Below are positions 2,495 to 21,662 of a DNA stretch of 64,000 bases, one piece after another. The position numbers were made by a program, and so were the translations under genes. The DNA is taken from contig JAFXQV010000018.1 of the NCBI GenBank assembly GCA_017526785.1, positions 62,001 through 126,000 of the forward strand, read 5' to 3'. How positions within the stretch are numbered: the first letter of the stretch is position 1; the number at the start of each line of letters is the position of its first letter. A model generated the notes under the pieces. That model saw only the letters and a program-made list of their open reading frames with translations, was not told where the DNA came from and ran no database searches. This stretch comes from Oscillibacter sp. (lineage in GTDB: Bacteria; Bacillota; Clostridia; Oscillospirales; Oscillospiraceae).

Positions 2495-2498
2495 ACCC

Positions 2499-2951
2499 AT
2501 GGACGAAATCTACGAGGCCTTTTTCACGTATCTTGAAAAAGTGGGCGGGCATCTCGACCGCCTCTCCGAGCTGGCCAAGACCAAGAACATCGCCGCCCAG
2601 CGCGGCGACGTGCTGAGCGTCAACGAGTGCATGCGCGAAGAGCAGGAAATCGGCCTGACCCTCCGCCGCATGGACAAACAGCGCGAACGCCTGCTGACGG
2701 TGTTACATCTCGACGGCGTGCCGCTGTCGGCCGTTCCGGGGCGCTGTCCGCCCGAACTGCGCCCCGCCGCGCGCGCCGCCGTCGAGGCGCTTCTGGCCAA
2801 GCGCGACATCTACCGCAGTGCCGCCGACGCCGCCCGCTCCACGCTCGAATGCAGTCTGCACAACATTGAGAAGCTCATCGAGCAGAAAGAGCCGACCGGC
2901 CGGACGGGCGTACACGCCCGCGGCGGGCTGTTCACCGACTATCGGACGTAA
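2499..2951 (+). CDS. flgN: FlgN-like export chaperone for FlgK/FlgL
   Basis: 150-residue, highly charged, predicted all-helical protein of the FlgN type, which keeps the hook-filament junction proteins FlgK and FlgL export-competent. Family sequence identity is low, so the call rests on length, helical character (long Leu/Arg/Glu heptad-like stretches at about 30-70 and 100-140) and position between flgM and flgK, as in Bacillus subtilis yvyG. Start ATG 2499 follows GGGGAGG at the end of flgM, leaving 4 bases between the two genes, so translation is probably coupled. The longer upstream frame (2448) overlaps flgM and is rejected. Confidence 0.8.
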   Translation: MDEIYEAFFTYLEKVGGHLDRLSELAKTKNIAAQRGDVLSVNECMREEQEIGLTLRRMDKQRERLLTVLHLDGVPLSAVPGRCPPELRPAARAAVEALLAKRDIYRSAADAARSTLECSLHNIEKLIEQKEPTGRTGVHARGGLFTDYRT

Positions 2952-2969
2952 TCTAAGGGGGGAACCGCT

Positions 2970-5093: not shown

Positions 5094-5113
5094 CAGAGAG
5101 GGGGAACGCAAGC

Positions 5114-6160: not shown

Positions 6161-6197
6161 AAAAGGCGTCTCTGGCGGAAACGCCGGAGTCCGTCTT

Positions 6198-6229
6198 TGG
6201 AACCGCGCGGCACCCGCCGCGCACTTCCA
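6198..6229 (+). other. Strong intercistronic hairpin between flgL and the DUF6470 gene
   Basis: A 7-bp perfect GC stem (6205-6211 with 6216-6222, loop ACCC) is extended after a 2x2 internal loop by TGGAA/TTCCA (6198-6202 with 6225-6229). There is no T-run on either side, so it is not an intrinsic terminator. It may protect or mark the end of the flgK-flgL message, or damp expression of the genes that follow. Confidence 0.55.
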
Positions 6230-6267
6230 TAAAGCATTGTAGAATCATGAAAGGAAGTGCTTTCGCA

Positions 6268-6867
6268 ATGTATCCCCTGATTGAGATTAAGAGTGTACCC
6301 ATTGAGTTGCAGTTCAAGACAACCAACGCCTCTTTGGAGTACACGCGCGGCACGGCCGAGATGGAAATCAGCCGTTCCGAGCAGGGCGGCGTCAACGTCC
6401 GGAGCCGCCCGATTCAGGTCAAGCTCGACACGTTTGAACAGCGCGGCGGGCAGTTCTCCGCCGCCAACGCCGCCGTCAGCGCCGCCGTGGGGCAGCCCTC
6501 TCAGGCGCAGTACGAGGCGACCTCCGCCTACGCCGAGCAGGGGCAGATTCAGCTCAGCGCCCGCATTGGCAAGAGCATCCCCCAAGCCGCCGCCCCCGCG
6601 CAGACCGGGGGTAGCGGCTACACCGCCCCCGATATCCAGACGGGCGTCGATGTCAAGTGGGAAGACGGCGCTATGGAAATTCGCTACGCCATGGACAAAC
6701 TCAACTTCGATTGGAAAATTGACAAGGGTGAATTCAAGTTCACGCCCGGCGACATCGAGATTTCGGTTGCCCAGAAGCCCAGCCTGACTATTAAGTACAC
6801 CGGAGGCCCCATTTACGTCCCGCGTTCCGCCGACCCGAACTATCAGCCCGTGGACGTGAACGCGTAA
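6268..6867 (+). CDS. DUF6470 (YviE-type) flagellar-locus protein
   Basis: 199-residue protein of unknown molecular function. In B. subtilis the equivalent gene (yviE) also lies between flgL and fliW, and that conserved position plus the N-terminal pattern (PLIEIKSVPIELQFKTTNAS) is the basis for the call. The protein opens with a beta-rich segment, has an Ala/Gln-rich middle, and ends in a beta-rich segment (KLNFDWKIDKGEFKFTPGDI). The start is ATG 6268 after AAAGGAAG; an ATG at 6247 is possible but lacks a binding site. It is separated from flgL by 107 bases containing a strong hairpin, so its expression could differ from that of flgKL. Confidence 0.8.
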   Translation: MYPLIEIKSVPIELQFKTTNASLEYTRGTAEMEISRSEQGGVNVRSRPIQVKLDTFEQRGGQFSAANAAVSAAVGQPSQAQYEATSAYAEQGQIQLSARIGKSIPQAAAPAQTGGSGYTAPDIQTGVDVKWEDGAMEIRYAMDKLNFDWKIDKGEFKFTPGDIEISVAQKPSLTIKYTGGPIYVPRSADPNYQPVDVNA

Positions 6868-6895: not shown

Positions 6896-7351
6896 ATGAA
6901 AACAGAGACCAAGTATTTCGGAGAGATTACGTACGAACCGGACGAACTTTTGACCTTCCCCAATGGGCTTTACGGCTTTGAGGATGAGCACTCGTTCCTT
7001 CTGCTTCCCTTCGCGGAAAACGGCACCCTCTTCAGCCTGCAAAGCGTCCAGACGCCGCAACTGGCGTTTATCCTGATGGACCCCTTTTCCCTTGACGGCA
7101 GTTACGCGCCGATACTGCGGGAGGAAGAGCTACGGTTCCTGAAAGTAGAGAGAAGCGAGAACCTCTTTTACTATGTGATGTGTGTTGTCAAGGAACCCGT
7201 GCCGGAAAGCACGGTCAACATGCGTTGTCCGGTGGCCATTAACGATGACAGAACCGCCTTGCAGGTGATTCTGGAGGACACGTCGTGGCACATGCGCCAT
7301 CGGCTCAGCGAGTTTGGCCGCGCGGAGGACAAGGAGGTGCCGTCATGCTGA
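6896..7351 (+). CDS. fliW: FliW flagellar assembly factor, CsrA antagonist
   Basis: 151 residues, the usual size. In Bacillus, FliW binds both flagellin and CsrA: free flagellin releases FliW, which then sequesters CsrA allosterically and permits flagellin translation. The conserved opening is visible (TKYFGEITYEPDELLTFPNGLYGFE), as are later family features (LAFILMDPFS and CPVAINDDRTALQVIL). Start follows CGGAGGTG. It overlaps csrA by 7 bases, so the antagonist and its target are probably made in a coupled ratio. The flagellin gene itself is not in the window. Confidence 0.95.
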   Translation: MKTETKYFGEITYEPDELLTFPNGLYGFEDEHSFLLLPFAENGTLFSLQSVQTPQLAFILMDPFSLDGSYAPILREEELRFLKVERSENLFYYVMCVVKEPVPESTVNMRCPVAINDDRTALQVILEDTSWHMRHRLSEFGRAEDKEVPSC

Positions 7352-7685: not shown

Positions 7686-8720
7686 TTATCGGCCGTGGTG
7701 GGGGCGCTTCATGACCATGCGGCAGGCGTTCATGACCTGCACCGTCACGGCCACGCTGTACTTTTCCTCGTACATGGACAGCAGGGGCAGGATATCCCGG
7801 TTCTGCGTGGCGACGTACTTGGGTGGCAGGTTCGTCAGCGCGATGGCGGTCACGTCCACCTTGCAACGGCTGCAGGTACACATTCCAAACTGCTTCATCA
7901 GCTTGTCGACCTTGTTTTCCACGACCGCCTGCGTGAGATTGAAGCACAAGAAGTCCTCGGAATTGTCGGGCGGCGCGGCCTTTCGCGGTTGCGGTTGTGT
8001 GGGCTGTTGTTGCGGCTGTTGCGCGTACTGCGGTTGTACAGGCTGTTGTTGCGGCTGTTGCGCGTACTGCGGTTGTACAGGCTGTTGTCGCGGTTGTTGC
8101 GCGTACTGCGGCTGTGCGGGCTGTTGTCGTGGTTGTGCGGCCTGTTGCGGCGGTTGTGCGGGTTCCCGCGCGAGTTGTTGCGGCACGTACGGCCGCGCGG
8201 CTGGCGGTTCGGGTTCCGGCTCCGGGTAGAATTTCGGTTGCTGCGGCATGCCCGCCGTTAGTTCGTCCGCGAAGTCCATCGCCGTCACCGGACGCCGTTC
8301 CTCCACGGGCGGCATGGCGCTGTTGCCCAGCGTGGAGGGATTGCTGAGCATAGAGAGCAGTTCCAGCGTCCGCGGGTCCGGTTCCTGCGCGGCGGGTTGC
8401 GACTGCGGCGGCGTCGCGGCGGCGGGTTGCGACTGTTGCGGAGGCGTCGCGGCGGGCTGTCTCTGCGGCGGCTCCTTCTTCCCGAACAGTTCCGACACCA
8501 GCGAATCTTCCTGCGCCGCCAAAGACGCCTGAATCCGGCTTTCCGTGGCGGCGTCGTCCAGTCCGCGTGTCTGCGGCCTGCCGTTGCTGATGACCTCGGT
8601 TCCGTCGCCTTCCTCTTTATTGTTATGGGAATTGCCCAGCAGAGACGCCGCCGGGTCGGTCAGAAGACTGAGTACCCGCGCCGTTTTACTGCTCTTTCCC
8701 GTGGCTCCGTTTTTTGGCAT
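7686..8720 (-). CDS. ComFB-domain protein with long Pro/Gln-rich linker
   Basis: 344 residues in three parts: a Ser/Lys-rich N terminus (1-90), a long disordered Pro/Gln/Ala region (about 90-250) with near-perfect 13-residue repeats of the type QPVQPQYAQQPQQ, and a C-terminal ComFB-like domain (about 253-335: LTQAVVENKVDKLM, then CTCSRCKVDVTAIALTNLPP). B. subtilis ComFB lies in the comF operon and its role is unclear; some cyanobacterial members are reported cyclic-nucleotide (c-di-GMP) receptors. It is downstream of a ParA ATPase on the same strand and surrounded by flagellar genes on the other. A role in positioning or regulating motility is inference. Confidence 0.75.
   Translation of the reverse strand: MPKNGATGKSSKTARVLSLLTDPAASLLGNSHNNKEEGDGTEVISNGRPQTRGLDDAATESRIQASLAAQEDSLVSELFGKKEPPQRQPAATPPQQSQPAAATPPQSQPAAQEPDPRTLELLSMLSNPSTLGNSAMPPVEERRPVTAMDFADELTAGMPQQPKFYPEPEPEPPAARPYVPQQLAREPAQPPQQAAQPRQQPAQPQYAQQPRQQPVQPQYAQQPQQQPVQPQYAQQPQQQPTQPQPRKAAPPDNSEDFLCFNLTQAVVENKVDKLMKQFGMCTCSRCKVDVTAIALTNLPPKYVATQNRDILPLLSMYEEKYSVAVTVQVMNACRMVMKRPHHGR
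7990..8150 (-). repeat. 39-bp tandem repeats encoding the Pro/Gln-rich linker
   Basis: The sequence GCGCGTACTG recurs at 8021, 8060 and 8099, a 39-base period, giving 13-residue repeats within the ComFB-domain protein; a diverged copy flanks the array. Being in frame, unit gain or loss would change linker length without breaking the gene. Confidence 0.85.
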
Positions 8721-8810: not shown

Positions 8811-9569
8811 TCATCCGTTCATCAGTTCCTTGACCAGCGCCTTGAAGTCCTTGGCGGGTTTCGAGCCAGGGTCGTAGGTGATAATGCTTTCGGCGTAGGC
8901 CGGAGCCGCCGCCACGGACACACTGCTGTGAATCTTGGTGCGGAACACCTTGGTTCCCAGATTCTTGGCCAGCTTCTGCGCCATGTCGTCCACCTCCCGG
9001 TTGAGCCGCAGGCGCAGACTGAAGCGGTTGAGCAGAATGCCCAGCACTTCCAGACCGGGGTTGAAGTTCTCCTTGATGTTCACGATTGTGTCCCGAATCT
9101 GCGAGACCGCCAGCACGCTGAGAATTTCCGGCGCCATGGGGATAATCAGCCCGCCGGAGGCGGCGTAGGCGTTCATCGTCAGCACGTTGAGCGCGGGGGG
9201 CGTGTCGATGATGATGTAGTCATAGTTCCCGGCGATTTTTCTCAGCTCGTTGCGCAGGAGGCATTCCCGGCCTTCCGAGCGGAATTCCAGCTCTACCGTG
9301 GAAAGGTCGATGTTCGACGGGAGGATGTCCCCCAGTTCCTCCGTCGACACAATCACGTCGTCAATGGATTTCTCGCCCGTGAACACGTCGTAGACGGTAT
9401 CGCAGTGTTCGATATCCACGCCCGCGCTGAACCCCAAACTGCCCTGCGGGTCCAAGTCCACGCCCAGCGTACGGTACTTCATCTTATGCAGTACGCCCAG
9501 AATCGACATGGCGGTGGTCGTCTTGCCGACGCCGCCCTTCTGGTTCGTGATGGTGATGATTTTTTTCAA
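8811..9569 (-). CDS. Orphan ParA/MinD-family ATPase in the flagellar locus
   Basis: 252 residues. The deviant Walker A motif (NQKGGVGKTTTA, signature K11 and K16), switch I (DLDPQGSL) and Walker B (YDYIIIDTPPAL) are all intact, so an ATP-dependent dimer that binds DNA or a surface is expected. Start is a TTG at 9569 behind AGGAGG. No ParB or parS-like repeat is nearby; its only partner on the strand is the ComFB-domain gene 90 bases downstream. ParA relatives outside chromosome segregation position chemoreceptor arrays and flagella, which fits the setting. It is transcribed away from fliD, from which it is separated by 135 bases. Confidence 0.9.
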   Translation of the reverse strand: MKKIITITNQKGGVGKTTTAMSILGVLHKMKYRTLGVDLDPQGSLGFSAGVDIEHCDTVYDVFTGEKSIDDVIVSTEELGDILPSNIDLSTVELEFRSEGRECLLRNELRKIAGNYDYIIIDTPPALNVLTMNAYAASGGLIIPMAPEILSVLAVSQIRDTIVNIKENFNPGLEVLGILLNRFSLRLRLNREVDDMAQKLAKNLGTKVFRTKIHSSVSVAAAPAYAESIITYDPGSKPAKDFKALVKELMNG

Positions 9570-9636: not shown

Positions 9637-9704
9637 AAAGGATGAGAAAATTAATAGGGGAACACAAATTTTTTCGCATACCCTATTCAAGGGAGTTGAG
9701 TAAC

Positions 9705-12566
9705 ATGGCAAATATCAACAGTCTGATGAGTTCTACCAGCAGTACGAACAGTCTGTACGGTACCCGGAACGTCCTCAGCGGTCTGGCCAGCGGCATGGAC
9801 ACCGAGGCCATGATTGAAAACAGCATTTCCGGCTACAAGACCAAAATCTCGCAGTTGGAAAAGGAGCAGACCAAATACCAGTGGAAGCAGGACGCGTACC
9901 GCAGTATTACGGACAAAATGCACGACCTGACCGAAAAATACACCTCCTACACCTCCAAGACAAACCTCTACAGCCCCGCCTACTTCAGCAATACCGTCTC
10001 CACGACCCCGGTCAGCGCGTCAGCGGAAGCCGCCGCCAGCGTCTCCGCCACCGGGCGCTCGTCCAGCGACATCCAGCTTTTAGCGGCCAAGGCCGCCACG
10101 TCGGCGCGTTACAATGTCTCCGCCGACGCATTAGGCCTCCAGACCACCTCCGCCACCACCGCCGGAATCGGGAATCTTAACGATAATGTCACCGTCGGCA
10201 CCCTGAAAGGCTCCATGACGCTGGACTACGACGGGCTGTCCATCGACATCTCGTTTGACGAGACCGACAACAATATTGACGGCACCGACGGTCATACACT
10301 CGCGGACGCCATTCAGGACAAACTCAACAAGATTGATATCGAGACCAGAAACGGCAAGCAAAAGGCCGGAGACATTATCACGGTCGGCGTCGACAACGGC
10401 AAGATTACCTTTACCGAAAACAGCGCCGCAACCAATCAGGGTGCCAGCCCGTACATCTCCTACGTTGACAGTTCCCTGAAATCCGCCCTGAGCGCCTCCG
10501 AAAGCACGCGCTCCAACGGCTACAAAGAGTACACCCTCGGAAGCGCGGGTGACTTTACAGATAGCCCCACGGGCGCGAAGTACCTCGCCGACAAGGAAAT
10601 CAGCGTCACACTCGACGGCGTGACCAAGAGTTTCAAGCTGAACAAAGACACCATTGAAAACCAAGGGATTGCGCAGGCGTTTAACGACGCTTTTGCAAGC
10701 GTCAACATGAATGTCAGCGCCACACTGAACGGCGACAAACTGACATTCAAGCCCAAGCCCACCAATGACACCTCCAATTTGTCCATCACGACGAAGAACG
10801 AGAAAGCCGCCGAAATGCTCGGCCTCGGAAACGGCGTCAGCAACTATCTTGACCCCAAGACCGCCATTAAGGATATACTGGGTTCTAAATTCAACTTCAC
10901 GCCCCAAGTCGCCAATACCGCTGACCTCACTTTGAAGCCGGAAAGCGACGGTTCCGCTTTCTACACTGACGAGACAACCGGAGACCGCTATGAATACGTG
11001 GAGAGCGCGGGGGTCGGCGACTACTACCGCGTCAACGACGACGGCGATTATCTCTACGAGTTGACCATCAACAGCAAGAGCATTTATGTCTCGGAGAAAT
11101 CCACCCTGCAATCGGTTCTGGACGATATCAACAGCAGTGACATGGGCGTGAACGCGTCGTACTCCAAGCTGACGGGCAAGTTTGTCTTTACCGCCAAGGA
11201 TACCGGGGAGAGCGGCAGTGTCAGCTTTGATAATGACCTTGCGCAAAGTCTCTTTACAACCGGAAACGGCGACCCCAGAAGCCGAACATTGAAGGATGTC
11301 CTCGGGCTTGCTGATAGTGTGACAAGTTTCACGTTGAAACTGGGTAGTAAGGCAGTCGGCACATTTAACGCCACAGATAACATTCAAACAGTAATGGATG
11401 TTATCAATGACAAAACTACAACGTCTCATGAAATCAAGGGCTTTGTAGAGTATGACAGCAACGCAGGCAAATTCTACAATACTGGTTCGGATAAGATTTC
11501 CTCTTCGTGGAACTTTTCCGCTTATGATGCCTCCGATAACCGTATTTCCTCTGTTGTTTCCGGTACGCAATTCTTCCGCGATACCTCTCTCATTGGCGAA
11601 AACCGCACCGCAGGCACGGACGCCACTGTGAGGATGACAGTCAACGGCGAGGCTATCACGCGTACCTACGCCAGCAACGAAATCGACTTGGACGGCATGA
11701 CCGTCACGCTCAAGGGCAACATCGGCGACGTGAGTGCCTACAAGACTTCCCCGGACAGTGACACAAGCCCGGCCGCAATCCAAGCGAGAAAAGACGCGGA
11801 CACGGCCAATCAGGCCAATACCGTTTCGTTCACCACGGCGGGCGGTTCGGACGACCTCATCAAGACAATTACCAGCTTCGTGAACGACTACAACGCCATT
11901 CTCAAAGAGGTTCACGACGCCTACGCCACCATGCCCGCCGAAAAGAGTTCCTCCACCCATGAGAAGTACGAACCCCTCTCGGACGACGACAAAAACAGCA
12001 TGAGTGACAAGGCCGTTGAGAACTACGAGGCCAAGGCCAAACAGGGCTTGCTCTTCGGTGACAGCGACCTCCGGGCGCTCTACGAAACACTCGTACGCAA
12101 TATCAACCCCGGCGGAAGCGACGGTGCCGCCCTGCGGAATATCGGCATTAGCGTCAACTACTCCGACAACACAGCCCAAATCACACTCGACGAAACCAAG
12201 CTCCGCGACGCCCTGAACAAAGACCCCGACAGCGTTACCAACGTATTCACCCGGTCGAAAGAGGGCGGTTCCAACTCCGACGGCCTCATGAGCAACGTAA
12301 AGACCACGATGGAGCAGTACGCGTCGACCTCTTTTGTCAGTCCGGGCGTACTCGTCCGCAAGGCCGGAAACAAGTATTCCTCCACGTCCCTGCTCAACAA
12401 CGAACTCCAGAAACAGCTCGACAACGTGCAGAAGAAAATCGAGCAGTGGCAGTCCAAGATGAGTACCAAAATCGACTACTACACGCGCCAGTTCACCGCG
12501 CTGGAAAAGCTCATGAACACCATGAACAGTCAGAGTTCCGCGCTGGCCGGACTGATGGGCATGTAA
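9705..12566 (+). CDS. fliD: FliD flagellar filament cap protein
   Basis: Caps the growing filament and catalyses flagellin folding at the tip. 953 residues, clearly longer than the 450-700 common in the family. The N-terminal FliD_N domain is recognisable (LSGLASGMDTEAMIENSISGYKTK) and the C-terminal FliD_C helices are too (DNVQKKIEQWQSKMSTKIDY, ending SSALAGLMGM). The extra length is a Thr/Ser/Asp-rich, beta-rich central region that is probably surface-exposed and variable; its codon use is slightly more AT-rich around 11.3-11.5 kb. The ATG at 9705 follows GGGAG and begins a typical FliD N terminus; the upstream frame from 9642 is not used. Confidence 0.93.
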   Translation: MANINSLMSSTSSTNSLYGTRNVLSGLASGMDTEAMIENSISGYKTKISQLEKEQTKYQWKQDAYRSITDKMHDLTEKYTSYTSKTNLYSPAYFSNTVSTTPVSASAEAAASVSATGRSSSDIQLLAAKAATSARYNVSADALGLQTTSATTAGIGNLNDNVTVGTLKGSMTLDYDGLSIDISFDETDNNIDGTDGHTLADAIQDKLNKIDIETRNGKQKAGDIITVGVDNGKITFTENSAATNQGASPYISYVDSSLKSALSASESTRSNGYKEYTLGSAGDFTDSPTGAKYLADKEISVTLDGVTKSFKLNKDTIENQGIAQAFNDAFASVNMNVSATLNGDKLTFKPKPTNDTSNLSITTKNEKAAEMLGLGNGVSNYLDPKTAIKDILGSKFNFTPQVANTADLTLKPESDGSAFYTDETTGDRYEYVESAGVGDYYRVNDDGDYLYELTINSKSIYVSEKSTLQSVLDDINSSDMGVNASYSKLTGKFVFTAKDTGESGSVSFDNDLAQSLFTTGNGDPRSRTLKDVLGLADSVTSFTLKLGSKAVGTFNATDNIQTVMDVINDKTTTSHEIKGFVEYDSNAGKFYNTGSDKISSSWNFSAYDASDNRISSVVSGTQFFRDTSLIGENRTAGTDATVRMTVNGEAITRTYASNEIDLDGMTVTLKGNIGDVSAYKTSPDSDTSPAAIQARKDADTANQANTVSFTTAGGSDDLIKTITSFVNDYNAILKEVHDAYATMPAEKSSSTHEKYEPLSDDDKNSMSDKAVENYEAKAKQGLLFGDSDLRALYETLVRNINPGGSDGAALRNIGISVNYSDNTAQITLDETKLRDALNKDPDSVTNVFTRSKEGGSNSDGLMSNVKTTMEQYASTSFVSPGVLVRKAGNKYSSTSLLNNELQKQLDNVQKKIEQWQSKMSTKIDYYTRQFTALEKLMNTMNSQSSALAGLMGM

Positions 12567-12590: not shown

Positions 12591-13079
12591 ATGAATACAA
12601 GAGGCTATCAGCAATACAAGCAACAGTCCCTGAACACGATGACGCCGGGCGAGTTGTTGCTTCTGGTACTCGATGAGCTGGTCAAGCGTCTGTTGCGGGG
12701 CGACTTAGCCCTGCAACAGCAGGACTATGCACTGTTCGACGCTTCCATTGACCGCTGTATCGCCATTGTGCGCTATCTGGACGACACACTCGACCGGAAA
12801 TACGAAATCAGCCGGGAACTGCACCGCCTTTACGAGTTCTTCAGTTACGACCTGAACCGAATCAAAATCGGGCGGAATCAGGAGGAGTTGAACCGCCTGC
12901 GGCCGCTGATTGTGGACTTGCGCGACACGTTCCGAATCGCCGAGCGCAACGTGGCCGAGCAGAACGGCGCGAACGCCACAAGCAGTCTTTCGGGGCCGCG
13001 CCACATCCCCGACACGGATTCCGGTATCCCCGGGCTGGACACGGGAGGGCGGAACGTCTATGGACACTCCTACTCTTGA
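12591..13079 (+). CDS. fliS: FliS flagellin export chaperone
   Basis: 162 residues. FliS binds the C terminus of flagellin to prevent premature polymerisation. The opening MNTRGYQQYKQQSLNTMTPG followed by ELLLLVLDELVKRLLRGDLAL is the standard FliS first helix, and the following helices (YDLNRIKIGRNQEELNRLRP) fit the family. A 40-residue Gly/Ser/Pro-rich tail is extra. It starts 24 bases after fliD and its tail overlaps the next gene by 20 bases, so all three are translated from one message. Confidence 0.93.
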   Translation: MNTRGYQQYKQQSLNTMTPGELLLLVLDELVKRLLRGDLALQQQDYALFDASIDRCIAIVRYLDDTLDRKYEISRELHRLYEFFSYDLNRIKIGRNQEELNRLRPLIVDLRDTFRIAERNVAEQNGANATSSLSGPRHIPDTDSGIPGLDTGGRNVYGHSYS

Positions 13080-13455
13080 AGAGCTTTGGCGGCGCAAGAA
13101 GGCACAGACTATCCGGCTCATGGAAGTGGCAGACCTGACGCGGCAGATTTTGGCGGCCGCCGAGCGCCGCGACCAAGTTTCGGTGGATATGCTCCTGTCC
13201 ATGCGCGCCGACCCCGTACAGCGCCTGACGGAACAGGAGGCCGGGCTGCAGCGCTTTTTGGAGAGCCTGCCGCGCCCCGACGCCATCCGCGCGGCGGAAC
13301 TGCTCAAGGGCGCGCCACCCGGCACCCCCGGCGAGGCGCAGTTGTCCGAACAAGTGGGGCAGTACCGCCGCCTGCTGGAATCCACCATAGAAATGGACCG
13401 CCGCCTGAGTATCCGGATTGGCGGGGAACGCTCTTTTTACAAGAAGTTCCGCTGA
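13060..13455 (+). CDS. FliT-like small helical protein at the end of the fliD operon
   Basis: 131 residues, predicted all-helical and strongly charged (TLEELWRRKKAQTIRLMEVA at the start, then Arg/Glu-rich helices, ending SIRIGGERSFYKKFR). No clear family signature. In Bacillus the third gene after fliD-fliS is fliT, encoding a small helical chaperone for FliD, so position and fold suggest a FliT or FlgN-like chaperone, but the assignment is by context. The start at 13060 overlaps fliS by 20 bases behind GGGAGGGCGG; a longer frame (12910) lies wholly within fliS and is rejected. Confidence 0.65.
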   Translation: MDTPTLEELWRRKKAQTIRLMEVADLTRQILAAAERRDQVSVDMLLSMRADPVQRLTEQEAGLQRFLESLPRPDAIRAAELLKGAPPGTPGEAQLSEQVGQYRRLLESTIEMDRRLSIRIGGERSFYKKFR

Positions 13456-13507: not shown

Positions 13508-14542
13508 CTACAGGCCAAGGGGAGCCGTAATCAGCCAGAGCGGCGCGCCGTCCCAGCGGCTCTTGGAGAACTCCGAGAGAATAACGTCCGGGTTCCACAC
13601 GGCCAGACTGTTTTCCCGGCTGTTGGGGTCGGCCACCAGAATGTCCCCGGAGAGCGTCACGCCGTGCAACAGGATGAAGTGGCCGCCCGAGGTGAAGTGT
13701 CCCGGCCCCATGAGCGCGACCAGAACGCCGCCCGTGGAGAGCGCGTCGTAGAGCGTATCCGCGCTGGCCTCCTCCACCGGAATCGACGCGCAGTCGAGGC
13801 CGTAGCGCTTGGCGGTTCCCTCCACAATCGACAGGTACGAGCCGCTGTGCAAGGCCGCGTACCCGGCGGACGCCGTCCACGCCGCCATGGCCTCCGGCGT
13901 GACGAGGTTCCCCGTCATGGTCGAAATTACCATGGCAAGCGCCGTGGGGCCACAGCCATACTTCCCGATTGGGTCGCGCCCGAAGAGCTTTTCCGCCCAC
14001 TGCGCGTCGCCCTGATTGAAGTAGCAGAGCGTCATATTCCCGCCCGTGAGGAACTCCTGCCCGTGCATGGTGACGAGTTCCGTAATGGCGGGGTCTGCCT
14101 TTTCGAGCTTCTCCCGGATACTGGGGTCTCCGGCGAGTTGCGCGAACTCCTGCGCGTTTTTGAGCATTTCGGCGGCGTAGGCCTCTTCCTCTTTTTGACG
14201 GCGTTCCGCCTCCCGTTGCAGGGCGGCGTTCTGCCGTGACTGACGCCGCGCCGTGGCGCGCAAGCGCCGCGCCTCCGCCTCGACGCGCTGTGTCTCCGCC
14301 ATGGCCGCCCGCGCTTTGACCTGTTCGGCCTCCCAGCGGTCAAATGATTCCGCGTACCCCTTGACTTGTGACCGGGTGTCATGGTATAAGATACGTACGG
14401 GCGTGACAATGGTCTCGTAGAGTTCCGGGTCGTTGAGGCGGCACAGGAGCAACTCCAAGCCAAGTACGCACGACACCGCCAGCAGTACCAGCGCCAGTAT
14501 CATCTTTGCCGGGCTGTTATACATGGTTCCTACCCCCATCAT
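13508..14542 (-). CDS. Membrane-anchored C39-like cysteine peptidase
   Basis: 344 residues in three parts: one transmembrane segment (about 14-34, LALVLLAVSCVLGLELLL), a long Arg/Glu/Ala coiled-coil region (about 60-130) and a C39_2-type papain-like domain (about 160-340). The likely catalytic pair is C197 (GKYGCGPTALAM) and H288 (GGHFILLHG), with an Asp in VADPNSRE. The topology places the peptidase outside the cell. Members cleave bacteriocin leaders, processed proteins or peptidoglycan-linked substrates, and the target here is unknown. It faces an FtsE-like ATPase gene 124 bases away; FtsEX systems drive extracellular wall hydrolases, so a link is possible but unproven. An internal ATG at 14524 is an alternative start. 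Confidence 0.8.
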   Translation of the reverse strand: MMGVGTMYNSPAKMILALVLLAVSCVLGLELLLCRLNDPELYETIVTPVRILYHDTRSQVKGYAESFDRWEAEQVKARAAMAETQRVEAEARRLRATARRQSRQNAALQREAERRQKEEEAYAAEMLKNAQEFAQLAGDPSIREKLEKADPAITELVTMHGQEFLTGGNMTLCYFNQGDAQWAEKLFGRDPIGKYGCGPTALAMVISTMTGNLVTPEAMAAWTASAGYAALHSGSYLSIVEGTAKRYGLDCASIPVEEASADTLYDALSTGGVLVALMGPGHFTSGGHFILLHGVTLSGDILVADPNSRENSLAVWNPDVILSEFSKSRWDGAPLWLITAPLGL

Positions 14543-14665
14543 GACCGGGAATTTTCGTCTCCCGGCGGAAAACCATCATGATGTCACACATCAAGGCTTC
14601 ACTTCCTTTCACCGGAAGTCATGATATCGAATTTTGGCGGAAATGTCAAGACGGGAGGCGCGGAA

Positions 14666-15370
14666 ATGCCCACAATACGACTGGACAACATATCCAAACT
14701 CTACCACTTGGGGGAGTTTGAACACTGGGCCGTGCAGGCGGTCGACCTGACCATTGAGCAGGGGGATTTTGTCTTTCTGGTGGGGAGCCGCGGCGCGGGC
14801 AAAAGCACCCTTATCAACATCATGGCCGGGGTGACCAAGCCGACACTCGGCAAGGTCTTTCTGGACAATGTGAACGTGGAGGAACTCAGGCCGAGAGAAC
14901 GCGAACAGGCGTTTTCGTCCATCCGCTGTATCGAGCAGGGCGCGGAACTCGACCGCTCCGACACGATTTACGGCAATCTCTCCGAGGAAGTGCGGCGGTT
15001 CTTCTTCTTCCGGCGGCGGGTCGTCAACAAGACCCTTGCCGACAAGGCTTTGGCCGTGGTGGGCGTCCCCGAATCCGGCGACACGTTCCCCCGCGATTTG
15101 TCCAGACCGGAATGCCGCCGCGTGCTGATTGCCAAGGCGGTACTCCACTCCCCGGCCATACTCATGCTCGACGACTTCACCGACCGCATGGACGAGGACA
15201 CCGTCTGGGACATGCTGCACCTGCTCAACGAGCTGAACCGCAAAGGCACCACCATTATCATGTCCACGAATTCCAGTTACGTCGTGAACACCATGCGCCG
15301 CCGCGTGGTGACGCTCGCCGACGGGAAGTTAGTGGGCGACGTGAAAAGGGGACGTTATGGCTATATCTGA
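14666..15370 (+). CDS. FtsE-like ABC ATPase with degenerate catalytic motifs
   Basis: 234 residues, the size of FtsE, and its Walker A (GSRGAGKSTL, K46) is FtsE-like. Later motifs depart from active ABC ATPases: the signature LSGGQ is LSRPECRR, the Walker B catalytic Glu is replaced by Asp (LMLDDFTDRMD), and the switch His is Asn (IIMSTNSS). ATP binding is likely, turnover doubtful or slow. No FtsX permease gene is next to it. Start ATG 14666 follows GGGAGG; the earlier frame start at 14621 has none. It is the first gene of a run with the FtsA-like, EAL-HDOD and Lys-rich membrane proteins, so it may act as a nucleotide-dependent scaffold. Confidence 0.8.
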   Translation: MPTIRLDNISKLYHLGEFEHWAVQAVDLTIEQGDFVFLVGSRGAGKSTLINIMAGVTKPTLGKVFLDNVNVEELRPREREQAFSSIRCIEQGAELDRSDTIYGNLSEEVRRFFFFRRRVVNKTLADKALAVVGVPESGDTFPRDLSRPECRRVLIAKAVLHSPAILMLDDFTDRMDEDTVWDMLHLLNELNRKGTTIIMSTNSSYVVNTMRRRVVTLADGKLVGDVKRGRYGYI

Positions 15371-15476
15371 TTCCAGCAAGGCCGAAAAGGTCGCGCCGCG
15401 CGTTCTGCCGCGTGGCAGGACGGTCAAACCGCGTACAAAAACCGAGGGGCGGCGCGCCCCGGTTGGAGGAGTTTCT

Positions 15477-17342
15477 ATGGGCGAGGCAATGAGAGAGCAG
15501 GACGCCAGCATCGTATTTTCACTGGACATCGGCACGCGCAGTATTATCGGCGTCGTGGGCGAGGTCGTCGACGGGAAACTGCACGTACTGGCCATCGAGA
15601 AGGAGAACCACGGACAGCGCTCCATGCTGGACGGCCAGATTGAGAACATCGGGCAGGTGGCGCAGGTGGCGAAGCGCGTCATAGAGCGCCTGCAGAAGCG
15701 GACGAAAATCCGCCTTGCGCGGGTGTGCGTCGCGGCCGCCGGACGCGCCCTGAAGTCCGAGGCCGCCGCGTTCACGCTCGAACTGCCCACCGTACAGCCC
15801 ATCACGGACGACGACATCAGCCACTTGGAGGCCGGCGCCGTGTCCGAGTCGGAGCAGGTCATCATGGAGCAGTCCGGCGACCAGAACGACCAGTATTACA
15901 TGGTCGGCTACACCGTCACCGGGTACCGGATAGACGGCTACCCCATGTCGAGTATCAAGGACCACAGCGGGAAGGTGCTGGAAGCGGAAGTCGTGGCGAC
16001 GTTCCTGCCGCGGGGCGTCGTGGATAGTCTGTATGCCGTGGTGTCGAAAGTCGGTCTGGAAGTCGCCAGTCTGACGCTCGAACCCATTGCCGCCTTGAAC
16101 GCCGCCATTCCCGCCGACATCCGCCTGCTGAATCTGGTTCTGGTCGACATCGGCGCGGGAACGTCGGATATCGCCATCTGCCGCGACGGAAGCGTAGTCG
16201 GCTACACCATGGCGACTATCGCCGGGGACGAAATCACAGAGTTGCTCATGCGTACGCTGTTGGTCGACTTCGAGACCGGGGAACAACTGAAAATGTCGCT
16301 CAATCAGGACAAGGCCGTGACCTACACGGACATCCTCGGCCTCTCGCACGACGTGAACCCCAAGGAGTTGCAGGAACTCGTCTCGCCGTCGGTCTCGACG
16401 CTCGCCGGGGAAATCGCCCAGCGCGTCCTTGACCTGAACGGCCGTCTGCCGTCGGCGGTGTTTCTCGCGGGCGGCGGGTGCAAATTAACCGGACTGCGCG
16501 AGAAAGTCGCCGAAGCGCTCAAAATGGACCCCAACCGCGTCACCGTCGCCGGGAACCACTTCCAGCGCAACTCGTACGCGGAAGAGTACAACCTGAACGA
16601 CCCCGAATACGCCACCCCGCTGGGAATCGCCATTTCGGCCGGGCTCGGCCTCATCAATGACAGTTACGTTATCCTGCTCAACGGCGAACCCGCAAAGTTA
16701 TTCCGTAGCGGCTCTCTGATTATCCGCGACCTGCTCATGATGAACGGCCACAACTACAACGACATGATGGGGCGCACCGGGGAAAATCTCACGTTCACGC
16801 TCAACGGCGAACGGAAATTTTTCCGGGGCGGACTGCCCGTGCCGCCCGTCATCCTGCTCAACGGCGAACTGGCCGCGCTGACCGACACCGTACACGCCGG
16901 AGACCACCTGCAATTTGTCCCCGCCAAGCCCGGGGAGGACGCGTCGAAGCGTATTTCCGACCTGCTGGGCGCTGACTTCAAGGGTACCGTCACCGTCAAC
17001 GGCGCGAAAGCCCGCCTTGACGCCCTCATCCACACCGGGGACGATATCTGGGCGGACAGGAAAGACCCCCTCCCGGAACCCGAACCCGTGCCGACGCCGA
17101 CACCCGTTGCCAAACCCGCCGCCCCCGCTGGCGACGCCGGACAAATTCGTGTCACCCTCAACGGGGAAAAGCTCATGCTCTTTGGCAAGCCCGGAGGAGA
17201 CCCCTACTACCTGATGGATTTGCTGAAATTCTCCGACCTCGATTTCCAGAACCTCGAAAAGCCCGTGGAACTGCGCGTGAACGGCCAGCCCGGGCAGTTT
17301 CAGGAAATCATCAAGGACGGCGACAGCGTGGAAATTGTGTGA
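15477..17342 (+). CDS. FtsA-like actin-family protein with repeat-rich C-terminal extension
   Basis: 621 residues from this start. Residues 1 to about 390 form an FtsA/PilM-type actin fold: phosphate 1 (FSLDIGTRSIIG), an SHS2-like insert, phosphate 2 (LVLVDIGAGTSDIAI) and adenosine loop (VFLAGGGCKLTGLRE). The remaining 230 residues repeat a beta unit with LNGE or VNG cores (VILLNGEPAKL, FTLNGERKF, VTVNGAKARL, VTLNGEKLML), with a Pro-rich linker near 545-570. Real FtsA is about 420 residues and ends in a membrane helix, which is absent, so this is a paralogue. ATG 15477 has GGAGGAG 5 bases upstream. ATG 15357, overlapping the ATPase gene, would add 40 basic residues and cannot be excluded. Confidence 0.8.
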   Translation: MGEAMREQDASIVFSLDIGTRSIIGVVGEVVDGKLHVLAIEKENHGQRSMLDGQIENIGQVAQVAKRVIERLQKRTKIRLARVCVAAAGRALKSEAAAFTLELPTVQPITDDDISHLEAGAVSESEQVIMEQSGDQNDQYYMVGYTVTGYRIDGYPMSSIKDHSGKVLEAEVVATFLPRGVVDSLYAVVSKVGLEVASLTLEPIAALNAAIPADIRLLNLVLVDIGAGTSDIAICRDGSVVGYTMATIAGDEITELLMRTLLVDFETGEQLKMSLNQDKAVTYTDILGLSHDVNPKELQELVSPSVSTLAGEIAQRVLDLNGRLPSAVFLAGGGCKLTGLREKVAEALKMDPNRVTVAGNHFQRNSYAEEYNLNDPEYATPLGIAISAGLGLINDSYVILLNGEPAKLFRSGSLIIRDLLMMNGHNYNDMMGRTGENLTFTLNGERKFFRGGLPVPPVILLNGELAALTDTVHAGDHLQFVPAKPGEDASKRISDLLGADFKGTVTVNGAKARLDALIHTGDDIWADRKDPLPEPEPVPTPTPVAKPAAPAGDAGQIRVTLNGEKLMLFGKPGGDPYYLMDLLKFSDLDFQNLEKPVELRVNGQPGQFQEIIKDGDSVEIV

Positions 17343-17362
17343 CAAAAGGAGGCGTTTGTCTC

Positions 17363-18628
17363 TTGAACGCCTACATTGCACGTCAGCCGATTCTCAACCA
17401 GCGCAAGGAGACAGTAGGCTATGAACTGCTGTTCCGCAACAATTCCGGCAACGCGGCGCATGTCAAGGACAACGACGCCGCCACAAGAAAAGTCCTGACG
17501 GACGCCGTGAACCTCTTCGGCCTCGACAACCTCACGGGCGGGCGCTACTCCTACATTAACTTCACGTCTCGCCTCATACTCGACGGCTTTGTGCGCCGCG
17601 CCGACCCCTCGAAAGTCGTCGTGCAGGTCATGGGCAACGCCGTCATGAATGACGACATGGAAAACGCGCTCCGCGCCCTCCGCGACGACGACTACTTTCT
17701 GGTGCTGAAAAACTATCTCGGGCAGGAGCATTACCACCCCTATTTGTCCCTGTTCGACGTGATACGCGTCAACTTCCGAAAGACAAACTTTGTATTCCAG
17801 CGCTCGGCCGTCCGCAAGTACGGCACCCCCGAAACCGTGTTCATGGCCGACCGCATCGAGACCGAGCAGGAATTTCAAAGCGCCCTGAACATGGGCTACC
17901 AGCTCTTTCAGGGCTACTACTTCGGCACGCCGGACATGCTCTCCATTCCGATTCTTCCCCTTATGGAGACCGCCTACGGCAAAATCCTCGCGGCGCTTCT
18001 GGTCGTCTCGCCGGACGTGCGCTGGGAGAGGCAGTGCGCCGACATTATCCAGAGTGACTTGCTTCTGTCGTACCTGTTCCCGCGCGAAATGGCCACGGTG
18101 CCGACCCCGACCGGGAAAAAGCCAGAGCATTACACCCCGCCCGACGACTGGAGTCCCGTTATCTACCGCATGGGGCCGCACTGGGTACGGCGCTGGGTCT
18201 GTCTGGCGCTCCTGCGGCACAACAACGCCTCCGGGGACGACCAGCTTCCCCGCGACGCCTACCGCCGCGCCCTGTTCATGGACACGCTCGCGGCGCGGTC
18301 ACAACTCAATGTGGACGTGCAGAGCGGGAACGTGTTCCTGCTCGGCATTATGAGCATGATGGAGGAAATCGTCGGAGAGGGGCCGCTGTACCTCCTGCGC
18401 GGCTTCCCTCTGCCGCCCGAACTCCGGGGCGTCCTGCTCGAAAACGCCGATAACGACTACGCCGCCCTCCTGCGCTATGCCCGGCTCTACGAGACACGCC
18501 CCAACGGCAGACTTGTGCCGGATTTCCCGGTCTCTCTGGACAAGTACAAGATTGAGGACGCCTTCAAGGCCTGCATGGAGGAGACCGAGGCGGCCATAGA
18601 GAGAATGGACACGCCCACGCCACAATGA
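17363..18628 (+). CDS. EAL-HDOD (YuxH-type) protein with degenerate EAL domain
   Basis: 421 residues. The N-terminal EAL-like domain opens as in YuxH proteins (NAYIARQPILNQRKETVGYE), but the catalytic EAL is ELL, the DDxxTG-type metal site is absent, and AEKVET is MADRIET. Cyclic-di-GMP hydrolysis is therefore unlikely, though binding remains possible. The C-terminal half is an HDOD domain (MGPHWVRRWVCLALL region). Such proteins link second messengers to signalling in motility loci. Start is TTG 17363, 10 bases after AAAGGAGG, which gives the standard N terminus. It begins 20 bases after the FtsA-like gene. Its last 27 residues resemble a tiny reading frame immediately downstream. Confidence 0.85.
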   Translation: MNAYIARQPILNQRKETVGYELLFRNNSGNAAHVKDNDAATRKVLTDAVNLFGLDNLTGGRYSYINFTSRLILDGFVRRADPSKVVVQVMGNAVMNDDMENALRALRDDDYFLVLKNYLGQEHYHPYLSLFDVIRVNFRKTNFVFQRSAVRKYGTPETVFMADRIETEQEFQSALNMGYQLFQGYYFGTPDMLSIPILPLMETAYGKILAALLVVSPDVRWERQCADIIQSDLLLSYLFPREMATVPTPTGKKPEHYTPPDDWSPVIYRMGPHWVRRWVCLALLRHNNASGDDQLPRDAYRRALFMDTLAARSQLNVDVQSGNVFLLGIMSMMEEIVGEGPLYLLRGFPLPPELRGVLLENADNDYAALLRYARLYETRPNGRLVPDFPVSLDKYKIEDAFKACMEETEAAIERMDTPTPQ

Positions 18629-18705
18629 AGCAGGTTGACAACAAATACAGGATGTGCGTCCACGAGACCGAGGCGGCGATATCGCGCATAGATACGCCGG
18701 TATAG
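18625..18705 (+). other. 26-codon reading frame resembling the end of the preceding gene
   Basis: It starts at an ATG that overlaps the stop codon of the EAL-HDOD gene (ATGA) and encodes a 26-residue peptide whose end, CVHETEAAISRIDTPV, parallels CMEETEAAIERMDTPTPQ at the end of that gene. DNA similarity is also visible over about 45 bases. It could be a remnant of a small tandem duplication or a short translated peptide made by stop-start coupling. No ribosome binding site is needed in the second case. Nothing indicates which is right. Confidence 0.45.
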
Positions 18706-18736
18706 CGGCGCATGCCAGATTGGAGGACAGCAACAA

Positions 18737-19582
18737 ATGAGTGACGAAGCTACCGAGGAGAAGAAGGGCAAAAAAAAGAAAGAGAAAAAGCCCAAGAAGG
18801 AAAAGCCCCCCAAGCCTAAAAAGGAGAAGAAACCCAAAAAGGGTAAGGAAACTCCCGAGGGTGCCGAGGGCGGAGAGGGCGGCAAAAAAAAGGGACTGCC
18901 GTTGCTTCTGATTCTGATTCCGGTGTTTGTGGTAGTGATTGCGGCGGCACTCGTGGTGATTTTCGTGGTACTGCCGAAACTCCGGAAGCCCCCGGCGGAA
19001 GAGGAAATCGACCCCGACGCCCCGCTTTCGGCGCAGGTCGAGAACACCGAACGCGCAAAAAAAGGCGATAAGCCGGACAAGGACGGCGGCGGCACCGAAA
19101 AAGCGGACGACGGCGGCGACACCGACGCCGAAGTACCGCCTCCCAATGACGAGGCCGACGCCGAAGCCGCCCCCGAAGTACCGCCTCCCGAAGAAGAAAA
19201 GAAGCCCGCGGACGTGGACATCGTGGTTTCTATGACCACCTCCGAGTCCATCAGCTATTTCCGCTCCCTGCCGCCGGAGGCGCTCGGACTGCCCGGCGAG
19301 AGTATGGCCGATTACGATATTTTCGCCTCCGAACACCTGATTCTCGTCGACGGCGTGCCGTGCAAGGAGTTCCACGTCTACAGCGTCGCCGGGAAGGCCG
19401 GAACGAATTCCGTGGAAGGCCTCTACCTGCTGACCCAGCGCGGCGCGCGGAAAATCTACAAGCTCGACGAGGCGACCAATACCGTGACGGAATTGAACTG
19501 GAAGCCTCCGCGCCCCGAACCCGAACCCGAACCGCTCCCGGAATCCGGGGACGGCGCGGAAGCCGAAGCCGAACCCGCGTAA
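18737..19582 (+). CDS. Lys-rich single-pass membrane protein of unknown function
   Basis: 281 residues, not recognised as a known family. Residues 1-52 are an extreme Lys/Pro/Glu stretch (low complexity), followed by one strong transmembrane segment (about 54-80, LPLLLILIPVFVVVIAAALV), an acidic Pro/Asp/Glu linker (about 88-165) and a soluble beta-rich domain (about 166-258, VDIVVSMTTSESISYFRSLP onward), then an acidic Glu/Pro tail. By the positive-inside rule, the Lys-rich part is cytoplasmic and the domain outside. The N-terminal layout recalls FliL but the outer domain does not. Start follows TTGGAGGAC. It is the last gene of the ATPase/FtsA-like/EAL-HDOD run. Confidence 0.8.
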   Translation: MSDEATEEKKGKKKKEKKPKKEKPPKPKKEKKPKKGKETPEGAEGGEGGKKKGLPLLLILIPVFVVVIAAALVVIFVVLPKLRKPPAEEEIDPDAPLSAQVENTERAKKGDKPDKDGGGTEKADDGGDTDAEVPPPNDEADAEAAPEVPPPEEEKKPADVDIVVSMTTSESISYFRSLPPEALGLPGESMADYDIFASEHLILVDGVPCKEFHVYSVAGKAGTNSVEGLYLLTQRGARKIYKLDEATNTVTELNWKPPRPEPEPEPLPESGDGAEAEAEPA

Positions 19583-19898: not shown

Positions 19899-21662
19899 AT
19901 GCTTAAAAACATGCAAATCCGCACAAGACTGATTACCGCGTTTCTGATTGTCATTCTCATGATGGCGCTTACGGGCGTGGTGTCCATTGTCATGCTCTCC
20001 AAGGTCGGTGCCAGCCTGCAGGGCTTCTACGACACGTCCTTGCAGACCATTGAGCAGTCGTGGAAAGGCAAGCGCGCCGCCGCCCTCATCCGCGCGAACG
20101 TCCTCCAAGCCACGCTTGACGACGACGACACGCGCAGTAACGGCTACATGACCTCCACGCGCACGGAGTACCAGACCCTTCAAGACGCCGCCGCCACGCT
20201 GAAAAACACCTACACGGGCGATAAGAGCGTCCTTACCACGCTGGATACTACTATCTCCAACATTGGCCCCACGCTGGAGCGCCTCTTCACCTACGCCAAT
20301 AACCATGACGTGCAGAACGGCTACCTCTATCTCCGCGAACAGTACGAGCCTCTGGCGGACTCCGTCCGTGCCCAGTTGGACAAAATCGGTCAGGACGCCG
20401 ACCAGGCCGCCCTTGACACCGTCGACACCGGGAAAACCCTCTCCACCACGGCCAATGTCCTTGTCATCACCCTTGTGATTCTGAGCGCCGCCGTTGGAAT
20501 CGTGCTGGCGATTGTCATCGCCAACGGCATTGTGAACCCCGTCAACGAAATGCAGGAGGTCACGCTTGCCGTTTCCCAAGGCGATTTCGAGTCCGATATC
20601 AAGTACCACTCCAAGGACGCCCTCGGCAGTCTCGCCGACAATATGCGCCACCTCACCGCCACTATCAAGGAAATTATCACCGACGTGGAAATGCAGTTGG
20701 CCGCCATGGGTGACGGTAACTTCAACGTCCGCAGCCGCAAAGAGGAAATGTATCTCGGTTCGTTCGCCCGCCTCCAGACCGCTATGACCAAGCTGACAAT
20801 GGCCGTCTCCGAGACCATGGCGCAGATTGACGTGTCCGCCGACCAAGTGAACAGCGGCGGCGAACAGATTTCTTCCTCCGCGCAGGCCATGGCGCAGGGC
20901 GCGACCGAACAGGCGTCGAGCGTGCAGGAACTCGCCGCCACCATCGGCGAAATCTCCCACGCCGTCGAGGAGACCGCCGAACACGCCCAGAACGCCAAAG
21001 TCGATAATCAGGCCTCCCACGACCAGATTGCCGTATGCTCCGCGCATATGGCCGACCTCATGGGCGCTATGAAGGCCATCGAGGTCAAGTCCCTTGAAAT
21101 CAGCAAGGTTATCAAGACCATTGAAGATATCGCTTTCCAGACGAACATTCTCGCCCTGAACGCGGCGGTAGAGGCCGCCCGCGCCGGAAGCGCCGGCAAG
21201 GGATTCGCCGTCGTCGCCGACGAAGTGCGCAACCTTGCCACGAAGTCGCAGGAGGCCTCCAAGAGTACCGCGACCCTTATCGAGGAGACCGTCAAGGCCG
21301 TCAACGAGGGAAGCCGCCTCTCCGTCGAGACCGACGAGGCACTCAAAGAAGTGGTTATCCGCGCCCAGAAGGTCATGGACGCCGTGACGCGTATCTCGAA
21401 GGCCACCGACGCGCAGTCGCACGATGTCGCGCAGGTCAGCACGGGTATCGACCAGATTTCCAGCGTCGTCCAGACGAACTCCGCCACCGCCGAGGAATCC
21501 GCCGCCGCCAGCGAGCAGTTGTCCGGGCAGGCCAACCTCCTGAAAGAGCTTATCGGACGCTTCACACTCCGCAAGGAAGTGGGCGGCGCGCGTTCGACCG
21601 TCGCCGCCGCGCACTCCGGCGACAGCTTCTCCGCCTCCAGTTCCGCCCACGATAAGTATTAA
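19899..21662 (+). CDS. Methyl-accepting chemotaxis protein
   Basis: 587-residue transmembrane chemoreceptor. TM1 is about residues 10-32, followed by a four-helix-bundle ligand domain of about 150 residues and TM2 (about 187-209, VLVITLVILSAAVGIVLAIV). A HAMP linker (VNPVNEMQEVTLAVSQGDFE) leads to the coiled-coil signalling domain with the highly conserved tip (IEDIAFQTNILALNAAVEAA, then GFAVVADEVRNLA) that docks CheA and CheW. Gln/Glu pairs around the two bundle arms are the likely CheR/CheB targets. No C-terminal CheR-docking pentapeptide is seen. Start follows GAAGGAGAA. It has its own promoter, a long leader and two terminators, so it is a single-gene unit. Confidence 0.97.
   Translation: MLKNMQIRTRLITAFLIVILMMALTGVVSIVMLSKVGASLQGFYDTSLQTIEQSWKGKRAAALIRANVLQATLDDDDTRSNGYMTSTRTEYQTLQDAAATLKNTYTGDKSVLTTLDTTISNIGPTLERLFTYANNHDVQNGYLYLREQYEPLADSVRAQLDKIGQDADQAALDTVDTGKTLSTTANVLVITLVILSAAVGIVLAIVIANGIVNPVNEMQEVTLAVSQGDFESDIKYHSKDALGSLADNMRHLTATIKEIITDVEMQLAAMGDGNFNVRSRKEEMYLGSFARLQTAMTKLTMAVSETMAQIDVSADQVNSGGEQISSSAQAMAQGATEQASSVQELAATIGEISHAVEETAEHAQNAKVDNQASHDQIAVCSAHMADLMGAMKAIEVKSLEISKVIKTIEDIAFQTNILALNAAVEAARAGSAGKGFAVVADEVRNLATKSQEASKSTATLIEETVKAVNEGSRLSVETDEALKEVVIRAQKVMDAVTRISKATDAQSHDVAQVSTGIDQISSVVQTNSATAEESAAASEQLSGQANLLKELIGRFTLRKEVGGARSTVAAAHSGDSFSASSSAHDKY

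Follow-up and report, generated by a model that had tools for sequence, protein, structure and literature searches.

A long FtsA-like protein conserved in a flagellar locus of Oscillibacter: a candidate scaffold of the flagellar apparatus in Clostridia

Why are relatives of the division proteins FtsE and FtsA encoded side by side among flagellar genes, with no FtsZ in the same cluster? The question is raised by a 64,000-nt stretch of Oscillibacter sp. DNA (the window; positions 62,001-126,000 of contig JAFXQV010000018.1), which belongs to a 2.34-Mb genome that is 94.6% complete. A preliminary description had singled out five genes here, coding for a C39-like peptidase, a degenerate FtsE, an FtsA-like protein, an EAL-HDOD protein and a Lys-rich membrane protein, and had read them as a nucleotide-controlled membrane scaffold with the peptidase as its output. 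All five genes were confirmed at the coordinates given for them, as was the lack of FtsZ in the cluster. The cluster is genuine: its genes evolve under purifying selection and are kept together as a block at the flagellar fliD-fliS locus. From its gene content, conservation, motif loss and link to flagella, which are observed, we infer as the best reading that the FtsA-like protein is an actin-family scaffold for the assembly or placement of the flagellum or of chemoreceptors; this function and all physical interactions proposed below are inferred. The genes of the locus, including a methyl-accepting chemotaxis protein (MCP) gene that the preliminary description had missed, are as follows.

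9642-12566, plus strand: FliD, filament cap, in the late flagellar row after which the module comes (Pfam FliD_C 2.7e-32, FliD_N 8.6e-12).
12591-13079, plus strand: FliS, flagellin export chaperone (Pfam FliS 1.2e-23).
13060-13455, plus strand: FlgN-like small protein, named by a guess from its position, without a supporting family match.
13508-14542, minus strand: C39-like cysteine peptidase, anchored in the membrane and with a stalk that resembles a coiled coil (Pfam Peptidase_C39_2 8.8e-14); Cys197, His288 and Asp305, the active-site residues of the papain-like fold, are invariant in 6/6 aligned sequences.
14666-15370, plus strand: FtsE-like ATPase whose catalytic motifs are degraded (TIGR02673, 131.8 bits; cut-off 264.85).
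15357-17342, plus strand: long FtsA-like actin-family protein (TIGR01174, 99.8 bits against 175.85).
17339-18628, plus strand: EAL-HDOD protein, catalytically degenerate (Pfam EAL 1.7e-4, below cut-off; alignment with the homologue in locus L032).
18737-19582, plus strand: Lys-type protein with a Lys-rich tail, one transmembrane helix, an acidic linker and a conserved extracellular domain (alignments).
19899-21662, plus strand: MCP with 4HB, HAMP and signalling domains (Pfam).

A 14-nt overlap joins the FtsE-like frame to the FtsA-like one, both in the window and in each of the five closest loci. A later start of the FtsA-like gene is possible at 15477, and the EAL-like gene may alternatively start at a TTG at 17363, behind the Shine-Dalgarno-like AAAGGAGG.

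To what extent is this arrangement conserved? We compared 36 loci by clustering: the window, five named loci (L011-L015) and 30 further neighbourhoods, which comprise all 10 matches outside the window genome in a search of the order and 20 of the 25 such matches in a search of the genus. The genus matches left out are G199, G205, G223, G215 and G247, the first three of which resemble L012, L013 and L011, respectively, in match position or frame length. The FtsA-like gene, as the basis of selection, is present in 36/36 loci by choice. The FtsE-like gene is found in 26/36 after unrelated ABC genes are set aside (that of L018 and a second one in L032), the MCP cluster in 29/36 (27 in the module; the copies of L019 and L024 lie about 4-5 kb away) and the Lys-type protein in 27/36, with one more frame found in L026. 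FliD and FliS each occur in 25/36 loci and the FlgN-like protein in 22/36, the C39 gene in 15/36 by profile, with the window counted, and the EAL-HDOD gene within the module in 8/36.

Most genus loci have the order fliD-fliS-flgN-FtsE-MCP-FtsA-Lys, and the whole row is one-stranded in ten of them (L029, L030, L033-L038, L040 and L043); in L040 a C39 frame overlaps the row on the opposite strand. The MCP gene thus lies between the FtsE-like and FtsA-like genes in most relatives, whereas in the window clade it lies downstream and an EAL gene is inserted. The module of L017 stands between fliD-fliS and flgB-fliI, and the FtsA-like gene of L020 precedes flgB-flgC-fliE-fliF-fliG-fliH-fliI with an SLH-protein gene in between, the names in this row being confirmed by Pfam (rod proteins, FliE, FliF, FliG, FliH and a FliI-type ATPase). 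Most of the module is missing from the eight order-level loci L018-L025 and from L045, which has an N-truncated gene; the absences at L019, L021 and L022 prove little, because the contigs end nearby.

The five named loci, which come from Oscillibacter or Oscillospiraceae metagenome-assembled genomes (four of the five from goat reticulum or sheep rumen), keep the gene order of the window, the EAL gene being present in one to three copies. In local alignments with the window proteins, identities are 83-94% for the FtsA-like protein, 77-89% for the FtsE-like, 75-92% for C39, 57-69% for the Lys-type and 46-79% for EAL. Median pairwise ratios of nonsynonymous to synonymous substitution rates are 0.10 for FtsA-like, 0.12 for FtsE-like, 0.17 for C39, 0.18 for MCP, 0.22 for Lys-type and 0.28 for EAL (the window and L011-L015 for FtsE-like; five sequences for EAL and four for MCP); at 0.10-0.28, which indicates purifying selection, all five genes and the MCP gene are maintained. 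The order of branching of L017, L016, L026 and the window clade is identical in the FtsE-like and FtsA-like trees. The conserved module consists of an FtsE-like ATPase, an MCP, the FtsA-like protein and a protein anchored at the surface; the C39 peptidase often accompanies them, and the EAL-HDOD gene is a local addition. Scattered homologues would have contradicted the idea of a co-conserved cluster; since the FtsE-like/MCP/FtsA-like/surface-protein block is kept together, that objection fails, and the original five-gene set has to be extended by the MCP gene and relieved of the EAL-HDOD gene.

What kind of protein is the FtsA-like one? It matches positions 2-368 of the 371 of the FtsA model TIGR01174, and scores 99.8-101.6 bits, far under the NCBIfam equivalog cut-off of 175.85. 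The nearest solved chains by profile match are FtsA (7q6f, 2.2e-19, covering profile positions 16-352) and then PilM (7.1e-13). The protein carries the phosphate motifs DIGT and DIGAGTSD, and the matched stretch includes the place of the 1C region; judged by sequence, it has an actin core with an FtsA-type 1C region. Its C-terminal part appears to differ from that of FtsA. A beta-grasp tail was recognised at E 0.01 as Ub-Mut7C in 12/16 homologues and as ThiS in 11/16, the window copy being below the curated cut-off, and long frames are mostly 580-790 aa. Six long proteins end in a beta-grasp-like or polar manner, and six canonical FtsA proteins in a basic/hydrophobic, helix-like one; the amphipathic membrane helix of FtsA was not recognised in the six long proteins examined, this being largely a visual judgement, as the two groups overlap in their moments (0.29-0.56 vs 0.44-0.68). 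The protein is, on sequence grounds, a long FtsA paralogue in which C-terminal beta-grasp repeats replace the membrane helix.

It is distinct from the division FtsA encoded beside FtsZ. Canonical FtsA proteins of six class genomes are all beside FtsZ (Pfam) and score 312-401 bits, over the equivalog cut-off; four of these genomes (G446, G430, G295 and G281) carry both proteins, and G292 and G519 gave no long FtsA-like match. The 55 long proteins stand apart from the six canonical ones in a tree (ultrafast bootstrap, UFBoot, 63 and 100). No other FtsA-family protein was found in the window genome, the second match being MreB (Pfam 2e-139). The resemblance to FtsA extends over the whole core model, the 1C place and the phosphate motifs, but the score is lower, the protein is longer and ends in a beta-grasp tail, and it is found with flagella rather than beside FtsZ. 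PilM of type IV pili (TIGR01175) is likewise actin-like, and its gene too stands in a motility locus close to that of a bitopic membrane protein; PilM_2 is matched by 16/16 FtsA-like homologues; however, PilM scores lower than FtsA, and in the genus of the window the genes beside the FtsA-like one are flagellar. No PilN/PilO or pilus genes were recognised in the neighbourhoods, where many neighbours were not scanned against the family library and no aimed search was made.

Is the link to flagella more than a matter of one locus? We ran a profile of the FtsA-like protein over 293 genomes of the class and searched the same set for FlhA (PF00771). The limit was set after seeing a gap, with 73 genomes above 240 bits and the next values below 90. 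Both proteins were found in 72 genomes, FlhA only in 46 and neither in 174, FlhA being present in 118/293; the single genome with the FtsA-like protein only (G325) carries FlhF, so that all 73 genomes with the long protein carry a flagellar marker. Among 197 genomes of the order, the long protein occurs in 11 (at 1e-10), all of which have FlhA. Among 61 species of the genus, 21 have both, 33 neither, 5 only the FtsA-like protein and 2 only FlhA; for those of at least 90% completeness (n = 32, contamination unfiltered), the numbers are 12, 19, 1 and 0. In the one exception, G240 (96% complete), the gene is N-truncated and its neighbours are FlgL and FlgK frames. These frames lie side by side at 2303-6629 of its contig C17 (locus L045), in a genome without an FlhA match, and the locus looks like a decaying motility locus. 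That the long protein is almost exclusive to flagella-making species suggests that it is part of the swimming apparatus. The connection is far stronger than was first seen, and flagellar placement, named in the preliminary description, is still one candidate role. A function as a substitute for FlhF is not supported: FlhF is found in 67/73 flagellates with the FtsA-like protein and in 35/46 without it (n = 119). The window genome itself gave no FlhF match at 1e-45.

Fisher's exact test on the class overlap gives p = 1.7e-35, a value that ignores relatedness. Several observations weigh against this reading. The genomes, being related, are not independent. The long protein is missing from 46/118 FlhA-positive genomes of the class and from 28/39 in the order, so flagella work without it and it is not universal. 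Exceptions in the genus are five genomes that combine the long protein with a lack of FlhA (four of them 56-76% complete) and two with the opposite pattern (both 71% complete). Outside the order, where we examined 20 neighbourhoods chosen from the 73 class matches, mostly one or two per family (neighbour families by clustering, one member each scanned), the FtsA-like gene adjoins an endonuclease III-type (HhH-GPD) gene in 12/20 and flagellar genes in 1/20; a GGDEF-GAF gene (L051-L055 and L060) and a VanW gene each stand beside it in 6/20. The sole flagellar case is L049, with an MCP gene and the row flgB-flgC-fliE-fliF-fliG-fliH-fliI nearby; with one such locus in 20, it is the co-occurrence that is general and not the position in a flagellar operon. 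Furthermore, the UFBoot support of the long FtsA clade is only 63, and the placement of L032 differs between the FtsE-like and FtsA-like trees.

How, then, is the ATPase to be understood? The window copy retains Walker A but has an altered signature, DD at the site of the catalytic Glu and Asn in place of the H-loop His, in agreement with its first description as degenerate. In a tree that included the canonical FtsE of the window genome and seven of its other ABC ATPases, the 26 FtsE-like copies grouped together as a single clade (UFBoot 99). Seventeen (L027-L038 and L040-L044) keep the catalytic Glu and His with a near-normal signature; nine (the window, L011-L017 and L026), which form one subclade, have Glu, His and signature changed, and in L017 even the Walker A Lys is changed. 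The simplest reading is that one lineage turned an active ATPase into an adaptor. The paired FtsX permease that is typical of FtsE was not found for it. There is no FtsX at the locus, as first noted, and no second one in the genome, a divergent one being liable to be missed because the model matches just 7/14 control genomes; the one FtsX found adjoins the canonical FtsE on another contig, so an FtsX elsewhere that pairs with the FtsE-like ATPase was not seen. The locus resembles the system of FtsEX, FtsA and a coiled-coil hydrolase in that an ATPase of FtsE origin is encoded next to a member of the FtsA family and to a cysteine enzyme that is exported and stalked, but differs in the lack of a detectable FtsX partner, in the degraded ATPase of the window clade and in the C39 type of the enzyme. 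FtsEX-type activation of the peptidase, as originally proposed, was therefore rejected as the main explanation: a second FtsX was not found, catalytic degradation affects 9/26 copies of the ATPase and the peptidase gene is away from the FtsA-like one in 21/36 loci.

The peptidase nevertheless bears on the main rival explanation, wall remodelling, according to which the module of motile cells would steer extracellular enzymes for the separation of rods or the passage of the flagellar rod and would not place flagella. The peptidase gene lies near the FtsA-like one in 15/36 loci. Where it does not, it is often elsewhere in the genome, and above 200 bits it tracks FlhA in the genus (26/61 genomes; 21/23 with FlhA vs 5/38 without). 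The VanW proteins of the class loci carry a peptidoglycan-binding domain (one member scanned). In L021 (scanned) and L022 (by cluster), a VanY-type carboxypeptidase is encoded, together with a PilZ protein, beside the long FtsA-like gene. The FtsEX-FtsA interaction is reported to matter for cell separation of E. coli (PMC7343993). On the other side stand the lack of a detected FtsX partner, the degraded ATPase and the inconstancy of the peptidase gene beside the FtsA-like one; weaker C39 relatives (155-175 bits) occur in four FlhA-negative genus genomes, and no convincing solved relative of the C39 protein was found in the PDB. Two flagellates of another genus (G010 and G030) have C39 without the FtsA-like protein. 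We regard wall remodelling as unlikely, if less so than the explanations that follow.

Hitch-hiking, in which a division or envelope gene would be kept with flagella merely because certain motile lineages keep both, could draw on the mostly non-flagellar neighbours outside the order and on the relatedness of the genomes; it is improbable, given that the gene is lost along with flagella inside one genus, that a separate canonical FtsA exists in the four genomes checked and that the gene is contiguous with fliD-fliS in many loci.

The EAL-HDOD identity of the window protein can be assigned by homology only: HDOD was not matched and EAL is below cut-off, but the alignable homologue of L032 matches both, so the earlier name stands only through that homologue, with which the window protein shares the domain order. 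Unlike L032, which has LDDY, the window and all L011-L015 copies have LKNY and have lost the metal-binding Asp pair. One to three tandem copies occur in the close relatives, among them three in L012 (6175-10019; 46-67% identical to the window) and two in L011 (11939-14510; 48-79%), an expansion of degenerate copies. With a place in the module at 8/36 loci, the gene was rejected as part of the core. The Lys-type protein, for which no convincing Pfam or PDB family was found, is conserved in a C-terminal domain some 90 residues long. A single strong hydrophobic, transmembrane segment is present in 24 of 27 copies, and three (L017, L032 and L045) have a lipoprotein-like signal instead, which weakens the notion of the Lys-rich tail as a conserved docking tail for FtsA. 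The restricted distribution and degeneracy of the EAL-HDOD gene and the replacement of the Lys tail in 3/27 copies likewise speak against a nucleotide-driven, FtsEX-like switch. Two genes past the Lys-type gene, a PilZ gene is found in 10 loci (L029-L031 and L033-L039; one scanned), beside a large SLH-domain protein gene. A role as cyclic di-GMP effector, in which the FtsA-like protein would be the relay through which second-messenger proteins (EAL-HDOD in the window, GGDEF or PilZ in other loci) adjust flagellar function, would fit these PilZ genes and those of L021 and L022, the EAL-HDOD genes, the GGDEF-GAF genes of the class loci (one member scanned) and a ComFB-domain protein nearby. Against it, the second-messenger gene varies by lineage and the catalytic Asp residues are gone from the EAL protein of the window; we consider this role improbable as well.

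That the cluster lies in a motility region was borne out by the genes that precede it: FlgK, FlgL-like, FliW, FliD and FliS. The genes upstream of fliD are as follows.

2970-5093: FlgK, in the flagellar locus upstream of the cluster.
5114-6160: FlgL-like protein, with weak flagellin-type matches.
6079-6867: DUF6470 protein, between the FlgL-like gene and FliW.
6896-7351: FliW.
7686-8720, minus strand: ComFB-domain protein.
8811-9569, minus strand: ParA-type ATPase, adjoining fliD.

The ParA cluster is present in 21/36 loci (the L024 copy lies away from fliD) and the ComFB cluster in 18/36; beside fliD, the two may have a role in placement or second-messenger control. Matches to a sigma-28-type pattern were set aside: they number three in the window against 0.87 expected (6/100 shuffles reach three), and none lies near the cluster.

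We return to the scaffold reading, which we favour on four grounds: the family to which the fold belongs, the association with flagella, the chemoreceptor gene that recurs next door and the partners at the cell surface. That the FtsA-like protein is an actin-family, ATP-binding scaffold which no longer takes part in cell division and now works for the flagellar apparatus in Clostridia has, in our estimate, close to an even chance of being correct. In such a mechanism, the core would form ATP-dependent dimers or short polymers under the membrane, and the beta-grasp tail would replace the FtsA membrane helix as the docking part and bind the chemoreceptor and the anchored protein. The scaffold would organise or place flagella or chemoreceptor arrays. 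In Oscillibacter-type genomes, the FtsA-like protein would have come to be encoded alongside the late flagellar genes, in company with an ATPase derived from FtsE, a chemoreceptor and a protein anchored at the surface; the FtsE-like subunit may have been an ATP-driven switch at first and later a static adaptor in the window clade, and the C39 peptidase may trim the wall or a surface protein where the structure passes. More tentatively, we propose that Clostridia possess a flagellar cytoskeletal protein. This FtsA paralogue of the actin family would have no part in division and be dedicated to the flagellum or the chemosensory apparatus; in one lineage, a subunit derived from FtsE, a chemoreceptor and a surface module would have come to join it.

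Full-text literature searches, with most subscription journals and bioRxiv preprints outside their scope, returned no report of a flagellum-linked FtsA. Clostridium perfringens, which has no flagella, is reported to possess a pilT-ftsA-ftsZ operon (PMC6958937).

Within the module, an ATPase has lost catalytic residues under purifying selection. Actin-family proteins serve division (FtsA), shape (MreB), pili (PilM) and magnetosomes (MamK). If the scaffold reading is true, a widespread actin-family protein tied to flagella would give the family a new role and might help to explain how flagella are positioned or built in Gram-positive cells.

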